Below the pieces are notes generated by a model, which made no database searches, was not told where the DNA came from, and was given only the letters and a program-made list of their open reading frames with translations. Shown in pieces: positions 520-15,748 of a stretch of 64,000 bases of DNA. Both the position numbers and the translations under genes were made by a program. Within the stretch, counting starts at the first letter, position 1, and each line of letters begins with the position of its first letter. Source of the DNA: Armatimonadota bacterium (GTDB taxonomy: Bacteria; Armatimonadota; HRBIN16); the NCBI GenBank assembly GCA_026003195.1, contig BPGU01000005.1, positions 62,001 to 126,000 on the forward strand. The letters run 5' to 3'.

Positions 520-2148
520 CTAGAATTCGCCTCTCAGGAACGCAGATACCACCTGAGGCGTATCCGCGCTGAATCCCGCTATATCTAAACTTAGCATATC
601 GTCCGGATCGGCTAACTGCGCATGGTTCGCCGCCATGGCGCATACCACGTTCCGACAACCGGGATTGACTTGTTCACGATACCGGTTGAGCATCGTCACC
701 GGCTGGTCACTGCCTCGCCAGCTCTCCTCATCCGTATACATTACGATGCCGTCCACATCCATCCTGTTCTGGACGGCATACACGTAGGGCAGACTGCAAT
801 CGGTGCCCGCCATACGGGCTATCTCCCGTGCACGATTCAATACCTCGCCGAACCTCATGCTCCCCCAGTCCTCCTCAACAGTGATTGTCCTGTCGGAGAA
901 CAGGATTATTCTGGCATGAGACTCCGTGCGGAGCGTGATATACGCAATTGCTAACGCCGCCTCGAAGCAGTTCATACCGGTAATTGGTGAGTAATAGCCC
1001 ATAGATCCGCTGCAGTCTACGGCAATCAGCAGACGCCTGTTGATCGGCTCTACGTTCCTGAAACTCTGGTAGAACGCCTGTTCCAGAGCGTCTACTACAG
1101 ACTGCACCGGTATCCAGGTCTTGCTGGACTTTATGCCCTCCCCGCCTTTGTAAGTATACCACGCGGAGAGTATCTTCAACGGATGCACTCTGCTCCTGCG
1201 TATGTTCTCAGCATCTGTGATGTAGTTGCAGACATAGAGCACTATCTCATTCCTCTGGTCCATCAGTAATCCGGAGTCGCTCATGTTGCCCAGGTTCCTG
1301 ATGAGCGCTTCATACTTCAGGTTCGGTAGAAGCGCCTCCCAGACCCTGGCGTCCTTCAAGAACCTGGTAGGTAGATGCTCCCGCTCCAGCTCGTACTCCT
1401 TGATGATATGCACCAGATGCTCTGCATCCACAGCTTCGTGAGCGAGCTTCATCCCGTAGATGTAGCGCATCGCTCCCATATCATCGTCCGGTTCATACTT
1501 GCCTACAGCCCAGCGGAACAATCTATCATGCTCCGGCGTGGCTGGCTTGATGTGAATGGAACGCAACACATCGCGATGCGACCATCCGTCACGACTCTGA
1601 TACTTGGCAAGCTGGTATCCTAACCGCTCGGCGGGCTGGTTATACCAGCTGCCGATAGCCCTTCTCACCGCCCTGCCCCAGCCGCGCAGGTCATCTATCA
1701 TTGCCGCCAGGTGCAGGATGTGAGTGCCGGTACGGGCGACCTGCGTTACCGCTGCGGATGCTGCGCGTTTGGCTAAATCGTCACCGAAGGTGAGAGCCAG
1801 CGCGAGTACGAACAGCGCGGTATCGTTGCTCTTTGCCAGTCCCTGCCGGGATATAAGCACCGCCTGGTCGATAACCTCAACGGGATACTGCTTGAGTAGC
1901 TGGATGATGTTCTGCGCGTTCTCTACCGTGAGCTTCTGCTCGCTCACGTAGAACGTGCCTTTCTCACTGCCGGTGATGAGGAACCGCCTGAGTCTGTTCC
2001 ATGCATCGGCTTCATAAGCCCAACCACCGGCGTTGTTGGGCACCATGCCGGGCAGAGGATCCGGAGTGCCCGGTGCAGACCAGACATCAACGGTGTCTGC
2101 TTCTGACCGAGAGGTCAAGTGTGAGGTCAAGTGTTTTGCGTAGTTCAT
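520..2148 (-). CDS. rsr: Ro60 / TROVE-domain RNA-binding protein
   Basis: A 542-residue Ro 60-kDa family protein, a ring of HEAT-like repeats that binds Y RNAs and damaged structured RNAs. The N-terminal half has the family signature RFLITGSEKGTFYVSEQKLT (residues 55-74) followed by the helical TROVE region to about residue 350. The C-terminal vWA domain (about 372-542) keeps a metal-ion-dependent adhesion site: DCSGSM (D378, S380, S382), T449 and D473. Length matches bacterial Rsr proteins, so it looks intact. The start at 2148 follows GGGAGG. In bacteria, Rsr works with Y RNAs and exonucleases in RNA processing; in a phage it could steer host or phage RNA turnover (inference). The candidate RNA at 449-512 lies just downstream. 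Confidence 0.92.
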   Translation of the reverse strand: MNYAKHLTSHLTSRSEADTVDVWSAPGTPDPLPGMVPNNAGGWAYEADAWNRLRRFLITGSEKGTFYVSEQKLTVENAQNIIQLLKQYPVEVIDQAVLISRQGLAKSNDTALFVLALALTFGDDLAKRAASAAVTQVARTGTHILHLAAMIDDLRGWGRAVRRAIGSWYNQPAERLGYQLAKYQSRDGWSHRDVLRSIHIKPATPEHDRLFRWAVGKYEPDDDMGAMRYIYGMKLAHEAVDAEHLVHIIKEYELEREHLPTRFLKDARVWEALLPNLKYEALIRNLGNMSDSGLLMDQRNEIVLYVCNYITDAENIRRSRVHPLKILSAWYTYKGGEGIKSSKTWIPVQSVVDALEQAFYQSFRNVEPINRRLLIAVDCSGSMGYYSPITGMNCFEAALAIAYITLRTESHARIILFSDRTITVEEDWGSMRFGEVLNRAREIARMAGTDCSLPYVYAVQNRMDVDGIVMYTDEESWRGSDQPVTMLNRYREQVNPGCRNVVCAMAANHAQLADPDDMLSLDIAGFSADTPQVVSAFLRGEF

Positions 2149-5777: not shown

Positions 5778-6827
5778 TTAGAGATCTACTCCTTCCGGCG
5801 CCCAGCGCAGGGACCAGTAATCCCTTATCAGCCGACGCCAGTTGTGATTGAAATCCACAGCCCGACTCCTTGTGGCAACCATCTGCCTCACACCTGGCAA
5901 CGCCATGTTGATGAGCGTCACCAGGTTCGGCAAATCCTTGCCGAAGCCGAACTGCGATAGCGACACCGATTCACCGGTCTTCCTGCCATCCATCATCGCC
6001 TCTATGGCGGGCGTATATCTGTCATACGCCTCAGCCCAGGCGATATCGCCATACCGGTCATAGTCGTATCGGGCATGCACCCAGGTCCACCAGGTGGCTA
6101 TGCCGACCAGCGATTTGGCGGCATGACCGTTTGCCAGACTCTGCGGGTCCACCTGCTCCACAGAGTCCGGTATCTCCACATCAGATAACTCCAGAATACG
6201 GTCAAGCGATATCTCCATGTCCACATATTCCGCCGGCTTACCACCTGTCCAGACCACGAACAGTAGATCCCCGTCGCTATCGCCCTGCCTGTCCACCACC
6301 AGGTCGTGGTCGTTGACGAATATGCCGTATCGGTCACGTACCAGCTTTATTGTGCATTTTAGGGGATTGCTGGACGCGATGGGCCACCTGATGGCGAAGC
6401 CCTCGGAAGCGGGATGCACGTTCAGACCACGCATCCCGATCCATACCTCGCCCTGAGGCACGATGGGCAGCCCGATGGCATAGCTCATGACACCGGGCAT
6501 AGCCATCGCAGACGCCTGTAACAGCTTGCGTCTTGCGGCAGCCATGAGCCATGCCTCTATCTGTTTGACCACATTCTGGCGCTCCTGCTCAGAGGCTATC
6601 AGATAATCATTGAACAGCGACCATGGCGGACCCACAAGCAGCACCTTCATGCGAACACCGTCCACCATGATCTCCTTGACAGGCAGGTCCGGCTTCGGGA
6701 TGTCCACCAGTCTGTTACCAATCATTATCTGTGCCGGCTCGCCTGTCGCAAGCTCGTGCAGCACCGTGCGGGGATACGGCACTGCATAGATACCATTGAT
6801 CAGGTTCAGAGGAACGTTCACTATCAT
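5778..6827 (-). CDS. RNA-polymerase beta'-like double-psi barrel protein (349 aa)
   Basis: The start is placed at ATG 6827 (MIVNVPLNL) behind AGGAGGCGCAGAG; a longer reading to 6938 would cross the leader. Residues 182-187 are GDSDGD followed by LLFVVW. This is the D-x-D-G-D metal-binding motif of two-barrel polymerases (NADFDGD of beta'; SDLDGDLYFV-like in QDE-1 and eukaryotic RdRPs). Upstream is an R-W-P (147-149), comparable to the NRQPT region. Downstream, LVGIATWWTWV and MMDGRKTG resemble the LGIxxNxH and VDFxKTG blocks of the RdRP/YonO class. It is followed directly by the beta-like gene. Assignment is inference from motifs but several blocks agree in order. Confidence 0.55.
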   Translation of the reverse strand: MIVNVPLNLINGIYAVPYPRTVLHELATGEPAQIMIGNRLVDIPKPDLPVKEIMVDGVRMKVLLVGPPWSLFNDYLIASEQERQNVVKQIEAWLMAAARRKLLQASAMAMPGVMSYAIGLPIVPQGEVWIGMRGLNVHPASEGFAIRWPIASSNPLKCTIKLVRDRYGIFVNDHDLVVDRQGDSDGDLLFVVWTGGKPAEYVDMEISLDRILELSDVEIPDSVEQVDPQSLANGHAAKSLVGIATWWTWVHARYDYDRYGDIAWAEAYDRYTPAIEAMMDGRKTGESVSLSQFGFGKDLPNLVTLINMALPGVRQMVATRSRAVDFNHNWRRLIRDYWSLRWAPEGVDL

Positions 6828-6833
6828 CTCTGC

Positions 6834-6864
6834 GCCTCCTGAGTTTGGGATACATAACCTATAC
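6834..6864 (-). promoter_or_regulatory. Repeated leader, copy L3
   Basis: Read leftward: TATAGGTTATGTATCCCAAA, then CTCAGGAGGCGCA before ATG 6827. It heads the two-gene polymerase-like operon and matches the consensus at nearly every position. Confidence 0.7.
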
Positions 6865-6988
6865 TGCGTAGCGACAAGGGGATAAGGCGTAATATGCACA
6901 CACGGCAGAATTGATACAATACGGCAGAAGTGATACAAGGCGTCTAAACGCTACAGGATGCCTGTACACGCCACGAGATACGTGCAGA

Positions 6989-9740: not shown

Positions 9741-12700
9741 TCAACGAGACACATGCCAATACCAGCCCTCGCCGGGCTTATATACCTTGCAGGGAACCTG
9801 GAAGTGCTCACATATCCGGATGGTCATCGCAGTGCCACCAACAAACTCGTCACCACGCCAGCGAGGTATAGCAAACACAATACACGTATACACATCCTCA
9901 CCGGCGTCCAGACGAGCCTGACGAACCTGCATCAAACGCTCCACCATCCGCAGGTTCCGCACATGTAACATCAACACCCTGTCGGTCAACGCATCAGGAT
10001 TGGGATGTAACCGCTTCACTAACTCCACATCCTCTGCAGTCACATCACCCATCAACTCAACGGAACCGACAGACACATCCTGATCCACCACAATGCTCAA
10101 AGCACTGCCACCAAGACCAACAGCATGGGAGACCGCTATGCTGTCTATACCGTCGGCGCCACCGCTCAATACGGTAACGCCATGTTCCACAGCAGCCTCC
10201 ACAACGAACTTGCAGGCGTCTACCTGCTCAGCATCGGGCTCACGAGTGCCGACTACCAGACACATGGCACCGGGAACAGGAGACACCACGTACCAGGTAC
10301 CGGCAGGCAGACTCCGCTCCAGAACAGACTTCACAACAGACCAGTCCAGTCTGCCCAAACCGCAACCGACACGAGGCATCACCGCAGCGGGAACGGGCAT
10401 CGTGCGGGCAGCAGAACGAATCAACTCCAGATCCGATGCCTCACGCCAGTGACGCTTGGTCGGGAATAATACCAGATGGAACTGCTCCAGATACACGCTC
10501 ATGCCACGCTCCAGCTCGGACAGATGCGCACGATACGCATCCAGTAGACCCGGATAACGCTCCGCAGCCTGCTTCGCTACACCGGCACCCATCACACCAA
10601 CACAGTTGACAGGCACCACCGCAGGCAATCCGGTACGCTCTGCCCAATCCCAGAGATCACCATGAACCTCGGTCAATTGAACCATAGCAGACTCCTGTTG
10701 ATCTTGCTCCTGTTGATCCTGTTCCTCCTGTTGATCCTGCAACAGGTCGCCCAACTCGACGGTCTCAACAGACTCATCAGTCTCCATAGACTCATCAGTC
10801 TCCATAGACTGCTCATCGGCTAATAGACCGCCGAGTTGGGACAGATCAACCAGCTCCGTACCTTCCGGAACCTCCAGCTCGGGCACATCGATATCCCATT
10901 CCGGACCGTCAGGACCGGGCTCGGGATCATCGCCACCGAACAGAGCGTCCACATCAAAGCGCGGATACTCCTGGAAGCTGAAGCCCAGCACGAACCAGAG
11001 CGCCTGACTCAACTCCAGAGCACGCGCAATCTTGATGTGACGACGACTATACGGCACACCGAACTGCAGACCGGAATATAACACGGTGCCGTTGAATCCG
11101 GCCTCGTCCGGATCATCATCGCGCACGGTGGTATCGTCAATGAACACCATGTTCACGATACCCACAAACGCATCGCCGAGATGCACACGACGACCGTTCA
11201 CTACGCGATACAACGGAACGGACCGGATGACAACACCGAGCTCCTGAGCCTTCTGGAGCGCAGCACGCATCGCCTCGGTCTCTATCGCACCGGCTGTCAA
11301 TACCTCATAGTCGGCACGATGAGACTCTATCACGCGACGATACTCCGCCCAGATGTCGTCAATCAAGTGCGCTTTGCCCTGCATGCGTGCCGCACCGTTA
11401 ATCAGGATACCCCACGCCTGCTTCTTACGCGCGGAGATACCACTGAACACGGCATCCACACGCAACCCGTCGCCGGTCACTATCTCGTCACCAACGACGG
11501 TGGCAAATGACTTGATCATACCGTCCAGCACAACTACCTTGGCACCTACCGGACGGGAACGAGACACAGCCCAGAACTGAACGCTGGTCTCCACCGCATC
11601 GCTCGTGATGGACGCCTCATAAATCCGATACTCTACACCGAGCTCGTCAAAGTCCACCACGTCCGACGCCAGCACATCGTCTATCTTGACGAGTCCGCTC
11701 ACACCGCGCAGATACTCAAAACCATGAGCCTTGAGATCGCGCAGACGCTCGCGAATCAAATCGCCAAGATACGCACCCTCCGGTAGATGCACCAGCTGGG
11801 AACGCTCCTGCTCCACATAGTCCAGCGCACCGGCAGCAAGATAAGCGGTCTCACTGCTACCGTCGGCGGGCTGGATGAGACCAGGCGCATCCACCAGCGC
11901 AATAACCATCGGATGCACCACGCCATGCACACCGCGCACGGACGCCTCTACACTCATCAAGCCAGGAGTCTCACGCACGAAGCGATACCACTCCTGACCA
12001 CCAAACGCGAGCAGGTCGCGCCAGTGCTCGGCATTGGCGATATCCAGAGCAATCAGACGGTTCTGACCGCCCTTGCGAGGATACCAGCGCACCGTCTCAC
12101 CATACAGACGACGCACTACCTCGCTCACCAGACGGTCGAACCGATACAGAGCCACGTCCGGATCCGGTGCGATATCGGCATACACCAGACCCGCACGTAA
12201 CAGATCGCCATACACCGTGATGTGACGGGCAGTAGCCACAGATAACTCATGACGCAGACGCAACGCCTGGCTCTCGAACCGACGCACCACAGCACGCACG
12301 GCACGAACCAGACGAGACGCATCGTCCACGCCAATCGGATGGGACTTTCCACCCGCCAGCAACTGAGCCATCGCAGACGATACCTTGCAATGCACGCCCA
12401 GCAAGCCGAACAACAGACCGTTCAGCAAGCCGGACAACAACAACACCTGCGGGCTCAGATAACGAGCACCGATCTCTATACGGTCGCCAACACCCAGAAC
12501 CACAGCATCGAACCGACCGGGCAACCACTCCATGCTGCGGTCCTGAATGATGATGCAACCGCTCACAAATTCCTCCGGCTCGGCGAGGAACCATGCGGTC
12601 GCATACAGACTGACCAGACGATACTCATGAGCGACAAACGAGATACCGCTCATGGTCTCGCCAGCCTGCTTGTCGGCAACCAGCATCAGAAGGTGCCAGC

Positions 12701-14744
12701 GATACAACTTCTGACCGTCCACCTCACGGCAACCAAGACCGATGCGGAACAACTGGACGCTATCCAGAACAGCATCGGGAGCCACCTTGCGAGAGAGGTC
12801 AACGGTAACAACCTGCCCGTCGTCCTTGACAGGCACCTCGTCAAATACCATCACCTTCTCGCCAGACTCCAGCATCACAGGCTCAATCTGGTTGCCAAAC
12901 CGGTCAACCAGAACGCCCTCGGACACCACTATACCGCGATTGGACCAGGCGAACACATGCTCGCTCCAGTCCTCAGGGAACAGAACAGGCAGGAACTCGC
13001 GGTTCTCAAACGACTCGGCGTCACGCGCGTTCTTGGGAGCCTGCTGCTCCAGCCGAAGCAGAGTGAGCACGGGCAGATGCTCCGCCATACGGTGCAGAGC
13101 ACGCACCACACGACGGTGCAGACCGCCGTGCTCGTCACGCACGAGCTGTAACTGCACGCCGGTATACGCCATGCCACCAACATAATGCATCAGGTCACGG
13201 TCGTCCAGCGTGCACCACTTCGGCAAGGACAACAACTCCATCTCGGCGCCGAGACCCAATTCGCTGCGCTTGCCAACCAGCGCGGGACGCTCCACCACAC
13301 GATGGAGAGAACCGTGCATCGGAGCACGAGCACTGGTAGAAGCGGCAAGATGCAGATCGGTCACGGAAATGCTCTCGGCAGACGCGATCTCCAGATCCAG
13401 ATCCTCGCCGACACTATCCAGCACCGCAACCGCACCGGCAACAAGCTCACCGGTCTTGCGGGCATCCTCGTCGGCGTCCTGTAACAACTGCTCCGCCAAC
13501 CATCCCAGCTCGTCACGCACCTGGGACAGACGAGACATGCGGATGGCACGCAGAATGGCACGAGTATACGGCAAACTGAACGCAGGCACAGGCTCACCGG
13601 TCAACTCGTCCACCTGATTGCTGGCACCGGAGACCAGACGCTTGCGGGCGTCAAACAACGGCTCCAGCACCCGCATCAGATAGGAACTGACCAGACCGGC
13701 TTCCTTCTGGTAACCGGCACGGTCCAACGCACTGGCGATACGATACACCAGCGCGAACAGAGGACCGACACCCTGAGTGGCCAGAACACCGGCAAGCGCA
13801 GCGGCACCGTGCAGTCCGCTCATCTTGACCTGACCGGCAACGTCGCTCAACCAGGCGGGAGCCATCACGTTACCGGTCCAGAACGCCTCGAGCGGACGAG
13901 GCGCCAGCAACTGAGCCAGCTTCGGATCCAGCTCGGTCACCAGATCCCTCGCCATGGCGATATCCACATAATAACGGTCACCGTCCTCATCGCCATACAA
14001 CTGCAAGGCGATATCCGGAGGCAACCAGACCATATCGCCATGACAACCGACGGTGCTGACGTCAATCAGCACCGGCAGCGCGATGATGAAACCGGTCATG
14101 GGATCGGTCAACGGCATGCGACGCAGAATGAGCAGCAACTTACCGACACGGGCAGAAGCCGCTACCAGCATCGCAGCACGCACCGGATCGTCTACATCGA
14201 TGCCGATGTTCCCGGCGATACGAGCCGCCATGTCAACGGTGATACCCACCTCGGACACGAGCGGCTTCACACCGAACGCCGCGCTCATGGCACGGATATA
14301 ACGATGAGCAGGACCGCCCTTCACAAACTCGGGATAGTGCTCATCGTCGCCGCGCCAGAACGCCAACGGTAACGAACCACCAGGACCATACACGCCGTCT
14401 ATCTCGAACTGGCGCATGGTCTTGGCGGTCGCGGTGGATCGCAACGCCAACTCCACATCGGCGCGAGTCTTACCGGCACCGAGTTGAGCACGCCAGGCGA
14501 GCTCGAACAAGCCCTGCGGTTTCACCATGACGGTGCCGTCGGTGAGAGGATAGACGCGCACCGCACGACGGGATACCGGCAACGACACGCGCTTACCATC
14601 ATGAGTGAACTCCCACAAGGCGATGCCCACTCGTGGAAGCTCCTTGACGAGCTTGCGGGCAACAGCCTCGGGGAGAATCAGAGAGGAACCGCGCACGGTA
14701 ATCATAGCGGCACCTCCTCGCATAGAATCAAACTCGCGCATCAT
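9741..14744 (-). CDS. Giant fused two-barrel polymerase-like protein with macro and SLOG/DprA-like domains
   Basis: About 1,667 residues from ATG 14744 (after GGAGG at the upstream gene's stop); ATG 14705 also has a good GGAGG site. Numbering below counts from a GTG at 14753. Residues 254-259 are GDEDGD followed by RYYVDI, a beta'-like D-x-D-G-D motif preceded by an R-x-P. Residues 1071-1110 (GAKVVVLDGMIKSFA...GDGLRVDAVFSGIS) resemble the beta barrel with lysines K1072 and K1081. An acidic, Q/E-rich linker (about 1310-1356) follows. Next is a macro domain (1357-1495: VHGDLWDW, VNCVGVMGAGVAKQAAERYP, RVGCGLGRLDW), then a SLOG/DprA-like Rossmann domain (1496-1670: VVGTRE, SGGADGID). A paralogous fused version of the split pair at 4567-6827 is inferred. 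An internal ATG at 10685 with AGGAG six bases upstream could yield the last 314 residues alone. Confidence 0.6.
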   Translation of the reverse strand: MMREFDSMRGGAAMITVRGSSLILPEAVARKLVKELPRVGIALWEFTHDGKRVSLPVSRRAVRVYPLTDGTVMVKPQGLFELAWRAQLGAGKTRADVELALRSTATAKTMRQFEIDGVYGPGGSLPLAFWRGDDEHYPEFVKGGPAHRYIRAMSAAFGVKPLVSEVGITVDMAARIAGNIGIDVDDPVRAAMLVAASARVGKLLLILRRMPLTDPMTGFIIALPVLIDVSTVGCHGDMVWLPPDIALQLYGDEDGDRYYVDIAMARDLVTELDPKLAQLLAPRPLEAFWTGNVMAPAWLSDVAGQVKMSGLHGAAALAGVLATQGVGPLFALVYRIASALDRAGYQKEAGLVSSYLMRVLEPLFDARKRLVSGASNQVDELTGEPVPAFSLPYTRAILRAIRMSRLSQVRDELGWLAEQLLQDADEDARKTGELVAGAVAVLDSVGEDLDLEIASAESISVTDLHLAASTSARAPMHGSLHRVVERPALVGKRSELGLGAEMELLSLPKWCTLDDRDLMHYVGGMAYTGVQLQLVRDEHGGLHRRVVRALHRMAEHLPVLTLLRLEQQAPKNARDAESFENREFLPVLFPEDWSEHVFAWSNRGIVVSEGVLVDRFGNQIEPVMLESGEKVMVFDEVPVKDDGQVVTVDLSRKVAPDAVLDSVQLFRIGLGCREVDGQKLYRWHLLMLVADKQAGETMSGISFVAHEYRLVSLYATAWFLAEPEEFVSGCIIIQDRSMEWLPGRFDAVVLGVGDRIEIGARYLSPQVLLLSGLLNGLLFGLLGVHCKVSSAMAQLLAGGKSHPIGVDDASRLVRAVRAVVRRFESQALRLRHELSVATARHITVYGDLLRAGLVYADIAPDPDVALYRFDRLVSEVVRRLYGETVRWYPRKGGQNRLIALDIANAEHWRDLLAFGGQEWYRFVRETPGLMSVEASVRGVHGVVHPMVIALVDAPGLIQPADGSSETAYLAAGALDYVEQERSQLVHLPEGAYLGDLIRERLRDLKAHGFEYLRGVSGLVKIDDVLASDVVDFDELGVEYRIYEASITSDAVETSVQFWAVSRSRPVGAKVVVLDGMIKSFATVVGDEIVTGDGLRVDAVFSGISARKKQAWGILINGAARMQGKAHLIDDIWAEYRRVIESHRADYEVLTAGAIETEAMRAALQKAQELGVVIRSVPLYRVVNGRRVHLGDAFVGIVNMVFIDDTTVRDDDPDEAGFNGTVLYSGLQFGVPYSRRHIKIARALELSQALWFVLGFSFQEYPRFDVDALFGGDDPEPGPDGPEWDIDVPELEVPEGTELVDLSQLGGLLADEQSMETDESMETDESVETVELGDLLQDQQEEQDQQEQDQQESAMVQLTEVHGDLWDWAERTGLPAVVPVNCVGVMGAGVAKQAAERYPGLLDAYRAHLSELERGMSVYLEQFHLVLFPTKRHWREASDLELIRSAARTMPVPAAVMPRVGCGLGRLDWSVVKSVLERSLPAGTWYVVSPVPGAMCLVVGTREPDAEQVDACKFVVEAAVEHGVTVLSGGADGIDSIAVSHAVGLGGSALSIVVDQDVSVGSVELMGDVTAEDVELVKRLHPNPDALTDRVLMLHVRNLRMVERLMQVRQARLDAGEDVYTCIVFAIPRWRGDEFVGGTAMTIRICEHFQVPCKVYKPGEGWYWHVSR

Positions 14745-14749
14745 CTCTA

Positions 14750-15748
14750 TCACCTCCGCGGTCGGAAGCCCGCAAGACGGCGCTCAACTCCAGGATAATC
14801 CAGCCCGGAGCCCTTAGCGCCGGCAGGCTCCACAACGACAGGGGATGCAATCAAAACATCCCCGGCGGGCTGAACAACCGGCTGATGAACAGCCGGCTGA
14901 TGATCCTGAGCCTGAACAGACCGATGAGCCTGAACAGGCTCAGGAACAGGAGCAGACTCAGGCTCAGGAACAGGAGCGGGAACAGGAGCGGGAACAGGAG
15001 CGGGAACAGACTGCGGTTGCTCCTCAACCTCCTGGCGCCGTGAACGACGACGCTCTATCCTGGAGCGGCGCTTCTCCTCCCGCCGCTTCTCCGCCTCGAG
15101 CATCTCCAGTAACTTCTGCTCGAGGCGCTTCCGCCAGGCCAGACCACGCACCGGGAGCCCCTGATGGGACTCCGCAGGCTGATCGTCACAAGCCGGTCGG
15201 GAGGGAACGACCGGCTTGCCGAACACCGACACATACTCCTCGCCAGAAGCCCGTAAGGCTCTGGCGATATCAAGGGCGGTCATCTCACGCAAGACCGCCC
15301 GGGCATGACGGAGCCAGGCTGCCACGCGCCGACGGTACGATTTGACCTCGGCGCCGGCACGGTAGGCTCCGGCAGAACGGAAGGAGGACAACACAGGTTT
15401 GATGTGCGATTCATAGAACCGCACGGTGTCCTCCTTCCCAAAGACATAAACGGACGCCTGATACCAGGCGTCCAGCAATTCCTCAGCCAGCTCGAGGCTG
15501 GGCTCAGCCTCGAACTGGCGAATCGCCTCATGGAGGCGCTCCCAGCGGCGACGGAATGCGTCACCGCTGGCAATCCCATAGTGCCGGGGCAAGCGCGGGC
15601 GACGTCGCCCCGACACAGCCTCATAAACACGGAGGGCGGACTCTGCCACCTCTCCGGATACCTGAACACGAGTGCCCGGCTTGCCAGGCAAACCGGGCAC
15701 ATAAACGAACGGCTCCGCATCGCGGAGCCAAAGGGCAAATCTTAGCAT
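14750..15748 (-). CDS. Hypothetical protein with basic coiled coil and Pro-Ala-Val repeats (332 aa)
   Basis: No family recognised. ATG 15748 follows GGAGGGATCGAC. The first 170 residues are helical and basic. About residues 210-245 are a very charged helix (KRREEKRRSRIERRRSRRQ) that may bind nucleic acid. About 250-275 repeat PAPVPAPVPAPVPEPE. The tail is Q/H/P-rich and disordered. Its stop overlaps the start region of the giant polymerase-like gene, so the two are coupled and may form a complex. Base composition of the repeat is low-complexity. Confidence 0.65.
   Translation of the reverse strand: MLRFALWLRDAEPFVYVPGLPGKPGTRVQVSGEVAESALRVYEAVSGRRRPRLPRHYGIASGDAFRRRWERLHEAIRQFEAEPSLELAEELLDAWYQASVYVFGKEDTVRFYESHIKPVLSSFRSAGAYRAGAEVKSYRRRVAAWLRHARAVLREMTALDIARALRASGEEYVSVFGKPVVPSRPACDDQPAESHQGLPVRGLAWRKRLEQKLLEMLEAEKRREEKRRSRIERRRSRRQEVEEQPQSVPAPVPAPVPAPVPEPESAPVPEPVQAHRSVQAQDHQPAVHQPVVQPAGDVLIASPVVVEPAGAKGSGLDYPGVERRLAGFRPRR

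Follow-up and report, generated by a model that had tools for sequence, protein, structure and literature searches.

Why should a bacteriophage carry an ADP-ribose-binding macro domain and a SLOG domain at the end of a very long protein that resembles an RNA polymerase, and on what substrate could such domains act? Large phages often carry macro, NADAR and SLOG domains, and it is debated whether the substrates of these are soluble signals or nucleic acids that have been ADP-ribosylated. Our reading, to which we would give a probability of roughly 0.45, is that the C-terminal 314 residues of the protein form an ADP-ribosyl-hydrolase module, which sits on an acidic linker, is tethered to a phage RNA-polymerase-like protein and would erase DarT-made ADP-ribose from single-stranded DNA (ssDNA). 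How this reading can be reached, and what speaks for other ones, is described below.

The locus

The stretch of DNA analysed here (the window, 64,000 nucleotides) corresponds to bases 62001-126000 of contig C5 (202,060 bp), which belongs to an assembly of 4.58 Mb in 29 contigs. It encodes a terminase, a portal, a major head protein and a tail sheath, namely genes of a large myophage. Because the assembly has 4.8% contamination, phage contigs may be co-binned with it, and the link between the phage and its host is therefore uncertain. Another contig of the same assembly, C7 (35,164 bp), represents part of a jumbo-type phage that is distantly related to this one. The C5 phage also encodes a Ro60-like TROVE/vWA protein at 520-2148 (-) of the window. 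Features of the long gene and its surroundings are as follows.

14750..15748 (-): upstream gene of 332 aa, with a 4-nt overlap with the GTG start of 9741..14753
9741..14753 (-): whole reading frame, a single open frame of 1670 codons counted from GTG
14705 (-): ATG, residue 17 (M17), the probable true start, with AGGAGG and a 7-nt spacer
11064..14705 (-): polymerase-like region, residues 17-1230, ~25% identical to the C7 orthologue
13977..13991 (-): DEDGD motif, residues 255-259; DFDGD in the C7 counterpart
10686..11063 (-): linker of ~126 residues, 34 acidic and 5 basic
10762..10810 (-): tandem repeat of an 18-bp unit, encoding SMETDE
10692..10740 (-): tandem repeat of 9/18-bp units, encoding QDQQE and containing AGGAG three times
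10692..10696 (-): AGGAG, 6-nt spacer to ATG 10685-10683, expected from the coding sequence
10275..10685 (-): DarG-like macro domain, residues 1357-1493; codon 10455-10457 for the catalytic-type lysine K1433
9744..10265 (-): DprA-type SLOG domain, residues 1497-1670

Judged from the sequence, ATG 14705 is the more probable start of this frame than the GTG.

The macro domain and the SLOG domain

A preliminary description of the locus had recognized a macro domain followed by a SLOG domain in the last 314 residues, and this assignment holds: 9741-10685 (-) is open and in frame with the 1670-aa ORF. The Pfam Macro match is slightly below its 22-bit cut-off (20.1 bits, E 7e-4), while the same region matches PHROG 335 with an E of 2e-24 and, partially, the NCBIfam DarG model with an E of 3e-19. 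Both NCBIfam and PADLOC assign DarG to it, and a sequence search of the PDB gave DarG as the top match (E 4e-12) together with a DarTG fusion. A structure model built using 35 viral macro relatives has a pLDDT of ~97 and, among solved structures, is most similar to DarG macrodomains (5m3e; Z 18.5, rmsd 2.1, 134 residues), with TARG1 coming next. The conserved ligand-pocket and catalytic residues are in place (N1383, GxG, K1433 and GCGLG), so that the macro domain, at least, escapes the refutation that the preliminary description had named, namely pockets lacking ligand-binding residues. The domain thus has the features of the DarG/TARG1 class, that is, a conserved Asn, a GxG loop, an FPTK-type lysine and a GxG catalytic loop on a macro fold. 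The position of the TARG1 catalytic-loop aspartate is occupied by Gly, as in DarG. K1433 lies in FPTKRHW and aligns with the lysine in FPTKKHW of DarG, which we take to be DarG K80. DarG K80 has been reported to be critical to catalysis (PMC11543638). The FPTK lysine is conserved in 35/35 aligned viral relatives, and so are module positions G33, G35, P75, G107 and G111.

It is to be noted that the resemblance to DarG covers one part of the latter. The match to NF048014 (DarG) spans positions 17-135 of 338 and gives 69.6 bits against a cut-off of 250, and in this comparison the C-terminal DarT-binding region of DarG is absent from the window protein. No DarT gene adjoins the macro module, nor does PF14487 match anywhere in the genome of the window. 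In a macro tree whose deep nodes are weak, the C5/C7 pair groups with stand-alone phage macro domains, apart from full-length DarG. Recent capture of a host DarG was considered as well, and is unsupported by this tree with its weak deep nodes.

As for the second domain, Pfam DNA_processg_A (PF02481) matches above its cut-off (E 6e-10; 39 bits against 29.6) and PHROG 768 matches with an E of 3e-14, while the equivalog-level match to bacterial DprA is not reached (TIGR00732, 28.7 bits against 191). Its structure model is of moderate quality (pLDDT 71), and the top matches, ShosA and DprA, are both weak. SLOG domains are known binders of nucleotide ligands, and the one in the window is nearest to DprA rather than to the Thoeris-type SLOG. 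Some DprA/SLOG proteins of jumbo phages have been proposed to bind ssDNA (PMC7824862).

Is the module made as a free protein?

The preliminary description had pointed out that ATG 10685-10683 is preceded by AGGAG (10696-10692) with a spacer of 6 nt, so that a free module could be produced, and it had warned that AGGAG may have arisen by chance because it also encodes the QQE repeat. The sequence is as described, and the warning turned out to be right: AGGAG occurs three times inside the QDQQE tandem repeat at 10692-10740. Functional use of this start, on the other hand, found no support. If synonymous codons are shuffled over the gene and shuffles retaining the Shine-Dalgarno (SD) sequence are counted, it is retained in 82% of shuffles at ATG 10685 versus 5% at M17 (14705), and there is thus no sign of codon selection for the SD. 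In-frame internal ATG codons with an SD are scarce in these phages, amounting to 0.47 per 1000 codons or 2.3% of internal ATGs. The C7 protein has ATG codons with SD-like sequences at the borders of its macro, SLOG and polymerase parts (residues 122, 433 and 745), for which shuffle retention is 79%, 72% and 32%, respectively. Most of these border SDs are explained by the E/Q-rich nature of the linkers. From the sequences of C5 and C7, it is possible that such sites are fossil starts of once-separate genes, or weak working starts.

The polymerase-like protein and its relatives

What, then, is the protein to which the module is fused? Two-barrel RNA polymerases have DxDxD (DFDGD in P23-45) as their metal-binding signature, beyond which the viral members have little sequence in common (PMC10770324). 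The window protein has GDEDGD in the motif region LPPDIALQLYGDEDGDRYY, and the C7 counterpart has GDFDGD in LPPDVAKEFYGDFDGDLYF, the surrounding context being conserved. Pfam and PDB sequence searches gave no match of the large protein to a known polymerase. A second protein with a conserved motif, GDSDGD, is encoded at 5778-6938 (-) of the window and by its C7 orthologue (L014:5019-6290 (-), ~30% identical), and its sequence suggests that it is possibly another RNA-polymerase-like subunit. Since either of the two chains with DxDGD-type motifs could be catalytic, the large protein, whose identity is argued from one motif, is called polymerase-like here.

The fusion itself, which the preliminary description had noticed in the window, recurs in C7. 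About 15 genes are in the same order in C5 and C7, including those for the terminase (42%), the portal (37%) and the protein directly upstream of the polymerase-like gene (the C7 homologue of the 14750-15748 product has 587 aa and is encoded likewise directly upstream), and from this shared order the two long genes are regarded as syntenic orthologues. The C7 protein (2049 aa, L014:10472-16621 (-)) consists of a ~120-residue N-terminal domain, macro, NADAR, SLOG, an acidic linker of ~130 residues and the polymerase-like region with DFDGD, in this order. The stretch ahead of the macro domain (L014:16258-16621 (-)) has no Pfam match. Between the two phages, macro domains are 62% identical, SLOG domains 32-38%, and the polymerase-like parts ~25%, with two significant stretches (E 4e-9 and 5e-6). 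The NADAR domain of C7 is clear (PF08719, E 8e-24, 85 bits against a cut-off of 35.1), and its E298 and K305 are seven residues apart, the same spacing as that of the reported catalytic E88 and K95. NADAR is absent from the C5 module, and the one in C7 is the sole example in the assembly.

The module is thus C-terminal in C5 but N-terminal in C7. Such opposite positions in syntenic orthologues mean that the association either survived domain rearrangement or re-arose through it. This suggests that these phages keep their polymerase-like protein coupled to a tool that could clear DNA of a mark set by bacterial defence.

How widespread is this linkage? A third and distant phage contig, from another genome of the phylum (G209:C6, 194,812 bp; loci L117-L121), encodes a syntenic DYDGD protein of 1463 aa, in which macro, SLOG and NADAR are all absent and whose sequence resembles that of the window polymerase nowhere but in the motif. 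A search with the macro domain of the module gave 80 viral loci, where every macro ORF is shorter than 440 aa and none is fused to a long protein. In IMG/VR, no relatives of the polymerase-like protein were found (single proteins; alignments A4 and A5). Relatives of the terminase were found on short contigs without a polymerase gene, and none among the genome contigs searched. Moorella phage MTATph1 has a macro gene and, ~3 kb from it, a separate DprA-like gene. Another viral contig has a macro gene directly abutted by a NADAR gene (L044:9980-10963 (+)).

Possible targets of the module

DarT2 ADP-ribosylates thymidine in ssDNA and the macrodomain of DarG reverses this, while DarT1 modifies guanosine and NADAR reverses it (PMC11125620; PMC11543638). 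In vitro, the RNA polymerase of M. tuberculosis is inhibited when the non-template strand carries DarT adducts (PMC12170906). Such systems are found in the host genus. In one genome (G006), lon and an RND transporter gene flank DarT and DarG, and at the same lon/RND locus the genome of the window and G005 each have an orphan DarG without DarT (DarTG and orphan DarG loci L132:4989-6026, L133:5485-6522 and L134:5527-7275). Many of the top cellular macro matches in the phylum also adjoin DarT.

If the module is an eraser, its macro domain would most likely remove ADP-ribose from thymidine, and the NADAR domain of C7 from guanosine, in ssDNA modified by DarT-type toxins of the host, while the SLOG domain would most likely help to hold ssDNA or sense a nucleotide ligand. 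Through the tether, the eraser would be at hand wherever the polymerase unwinds DNA, and the phage could be transcribed or replicated without a block. Here, enzymatic activity, a DNA substrate, the anti-DarT purpose and polymerase activity are what we infer from sequences and their contexts. One may go further and imagine a polymerase with a built-in lesion eraser, by which DNA de-ADP-ribosylation is coupled to transcription or replication and DarT-type defences are passed just where DarT meets ssDNA, but we regard this extension as rather doubtful. The linkage to a polymerase-like protein in two divergent phages, at opposite ends, points to a nucleic-acid substrate, and makes the question of the substrate directly testable by DarT assays. 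Counted against the anti-DarT reading are the missing DarT-binding region, the macro tree, the absence of DarT from the genome of the window and of NADAR from C5, the single motif by which the polymerase is identified, the uncertain link between phage and host, and a published contextual analysis in which soluble derivatives of ADP-ribose are the preferred targets for most macro and NADAR domains of phages (PMC9503650).

This last point leads to another explanation, close to the preliminary description, in which the module had been supposed to meet NAD-derived signals of systems such as Thoeris. The SLOG domain may bind, and the macro domain hydrolyse or sequester, soluble immune signals such as cADPR isomers, ADPR and ADPR-phosphates, with the polymerase being regulated by the signal or serving as a mere carrier. 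SLOG domains do bind nucleotide ligands in general. Phage combinations of SLOG, macro and NADAR have been so interpreted (PMC9503650; PMC7824862). What stood of the preliminary description is the macro domain with its pocket residues, the SLOG-type Rossmann domain and the fusion to a polymerase-like protein. Thoeris as the target, however, became less likely, since TIR_2 (PF13676) and ThsB_TIR (PF08937), the two TIR models searched, have no match in 10 genomes of the genus, while the macro domain is nearest to DarG/TARG1, the orthologue carries NADAR, the genus has DarTG and orphan DarG, and the SLOG domain is nearest to DprA instead of the Thoeris type. In addition, an enzyme for soluble signals does not need to be fused to a nucleic-acid enzyme. 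We consider this explanation rather unlikely. Or, once-separate neighbours might have been joined by loss of stop codons. In that case the module would be an ADP-ribose enzyme of general use, free or loosely attached, whose internal starts are fossil or weak and which has nothing in particular to do with the polymerase. In keeping with such a history, the macro domain begins at an ATG with an SD in C5 as well as in C7, as do the SLOG domain and the polymerase-like region of C7, and the genes are separate in MTATph1 and abutting in L044. But 72-82% of shuffles retain the SDs of the macro start in C5 and of the macro and SLOG starts in C7, so that E/Q-rich coding explains them, and two arrangements of one association in orthologues suggest selection for linkage and not accident, which makes this history quite improbable. 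About as hard to favour is the idea that the polymerase itself, or the ends of RNA, are what the module frees of ADP-ribose, for self-protection or RNA repair. NADARs can act on RNA guanosine (PMC11833690) and the Ro60/TROVE gene is nearby (520-2148), whereas the Gly at the TARG1 aspartate position, shared with DarG, speaks against it. RNA repair linked to KptA was also considered and dropped, as KptA was not found in the assembly.

Relation to known systems

The co-occurrence of macro, NADAR and SLOG in phages is already known, and the architectures described by Iyer and colleagues combine the same three families in large phages (PMC7824862; PMC9503650). No fusion to an RNA-polymerase-like protein is described in the passages compared, while here the module lies at opposite ends of syntenic orthologues. 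Neither in the literature searched nor in the other viral loci compared was an example found of these domains on a polymerase-like protein. To our knowledge, no other polymerase carries an ADP-ribose eraser. With the macrodomain of DarG, the antitoxin of DarTG2, and with TARG1/C6orf130, the window protein shares the macro fold and pocket, the FPTKxHW lysine and the GCGxG loop, but unlike DarG it has neither a DarT-binding C-terminal region nor an adjacent DarT, and its macro domain precedes a SLOG domain within a polymerase-like chain. Stand-alone macro and DprA-like genes of phages such as MTATph1 belong to the same PHROG families and lie near each other, yet they are separate there and fused here. 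Two-barrel phage RNA polymerases, P23-45 gp64/gp96 and relatives, are alike in having DxDGD in a giant chain, and domain fusions are known among them, as in a vRNAP fused to a tape-measure protein (PMC10770324). In contrast to gp64/gp96, with which no sequence match is detectable, the window protein has its motif ~255 residues from the N-terminus and an ADP-ribose module fused to it. Finally, the phage anti-DarT factors AdfA and AdfB are comparable in proposed purpose, which is the escape of phage DNA from DarT. AdfB is an antitoxin mimic that binds DarT (PMC11481870), whereas the module in the window would be a putative eraser fused to a polymerase-like protein.
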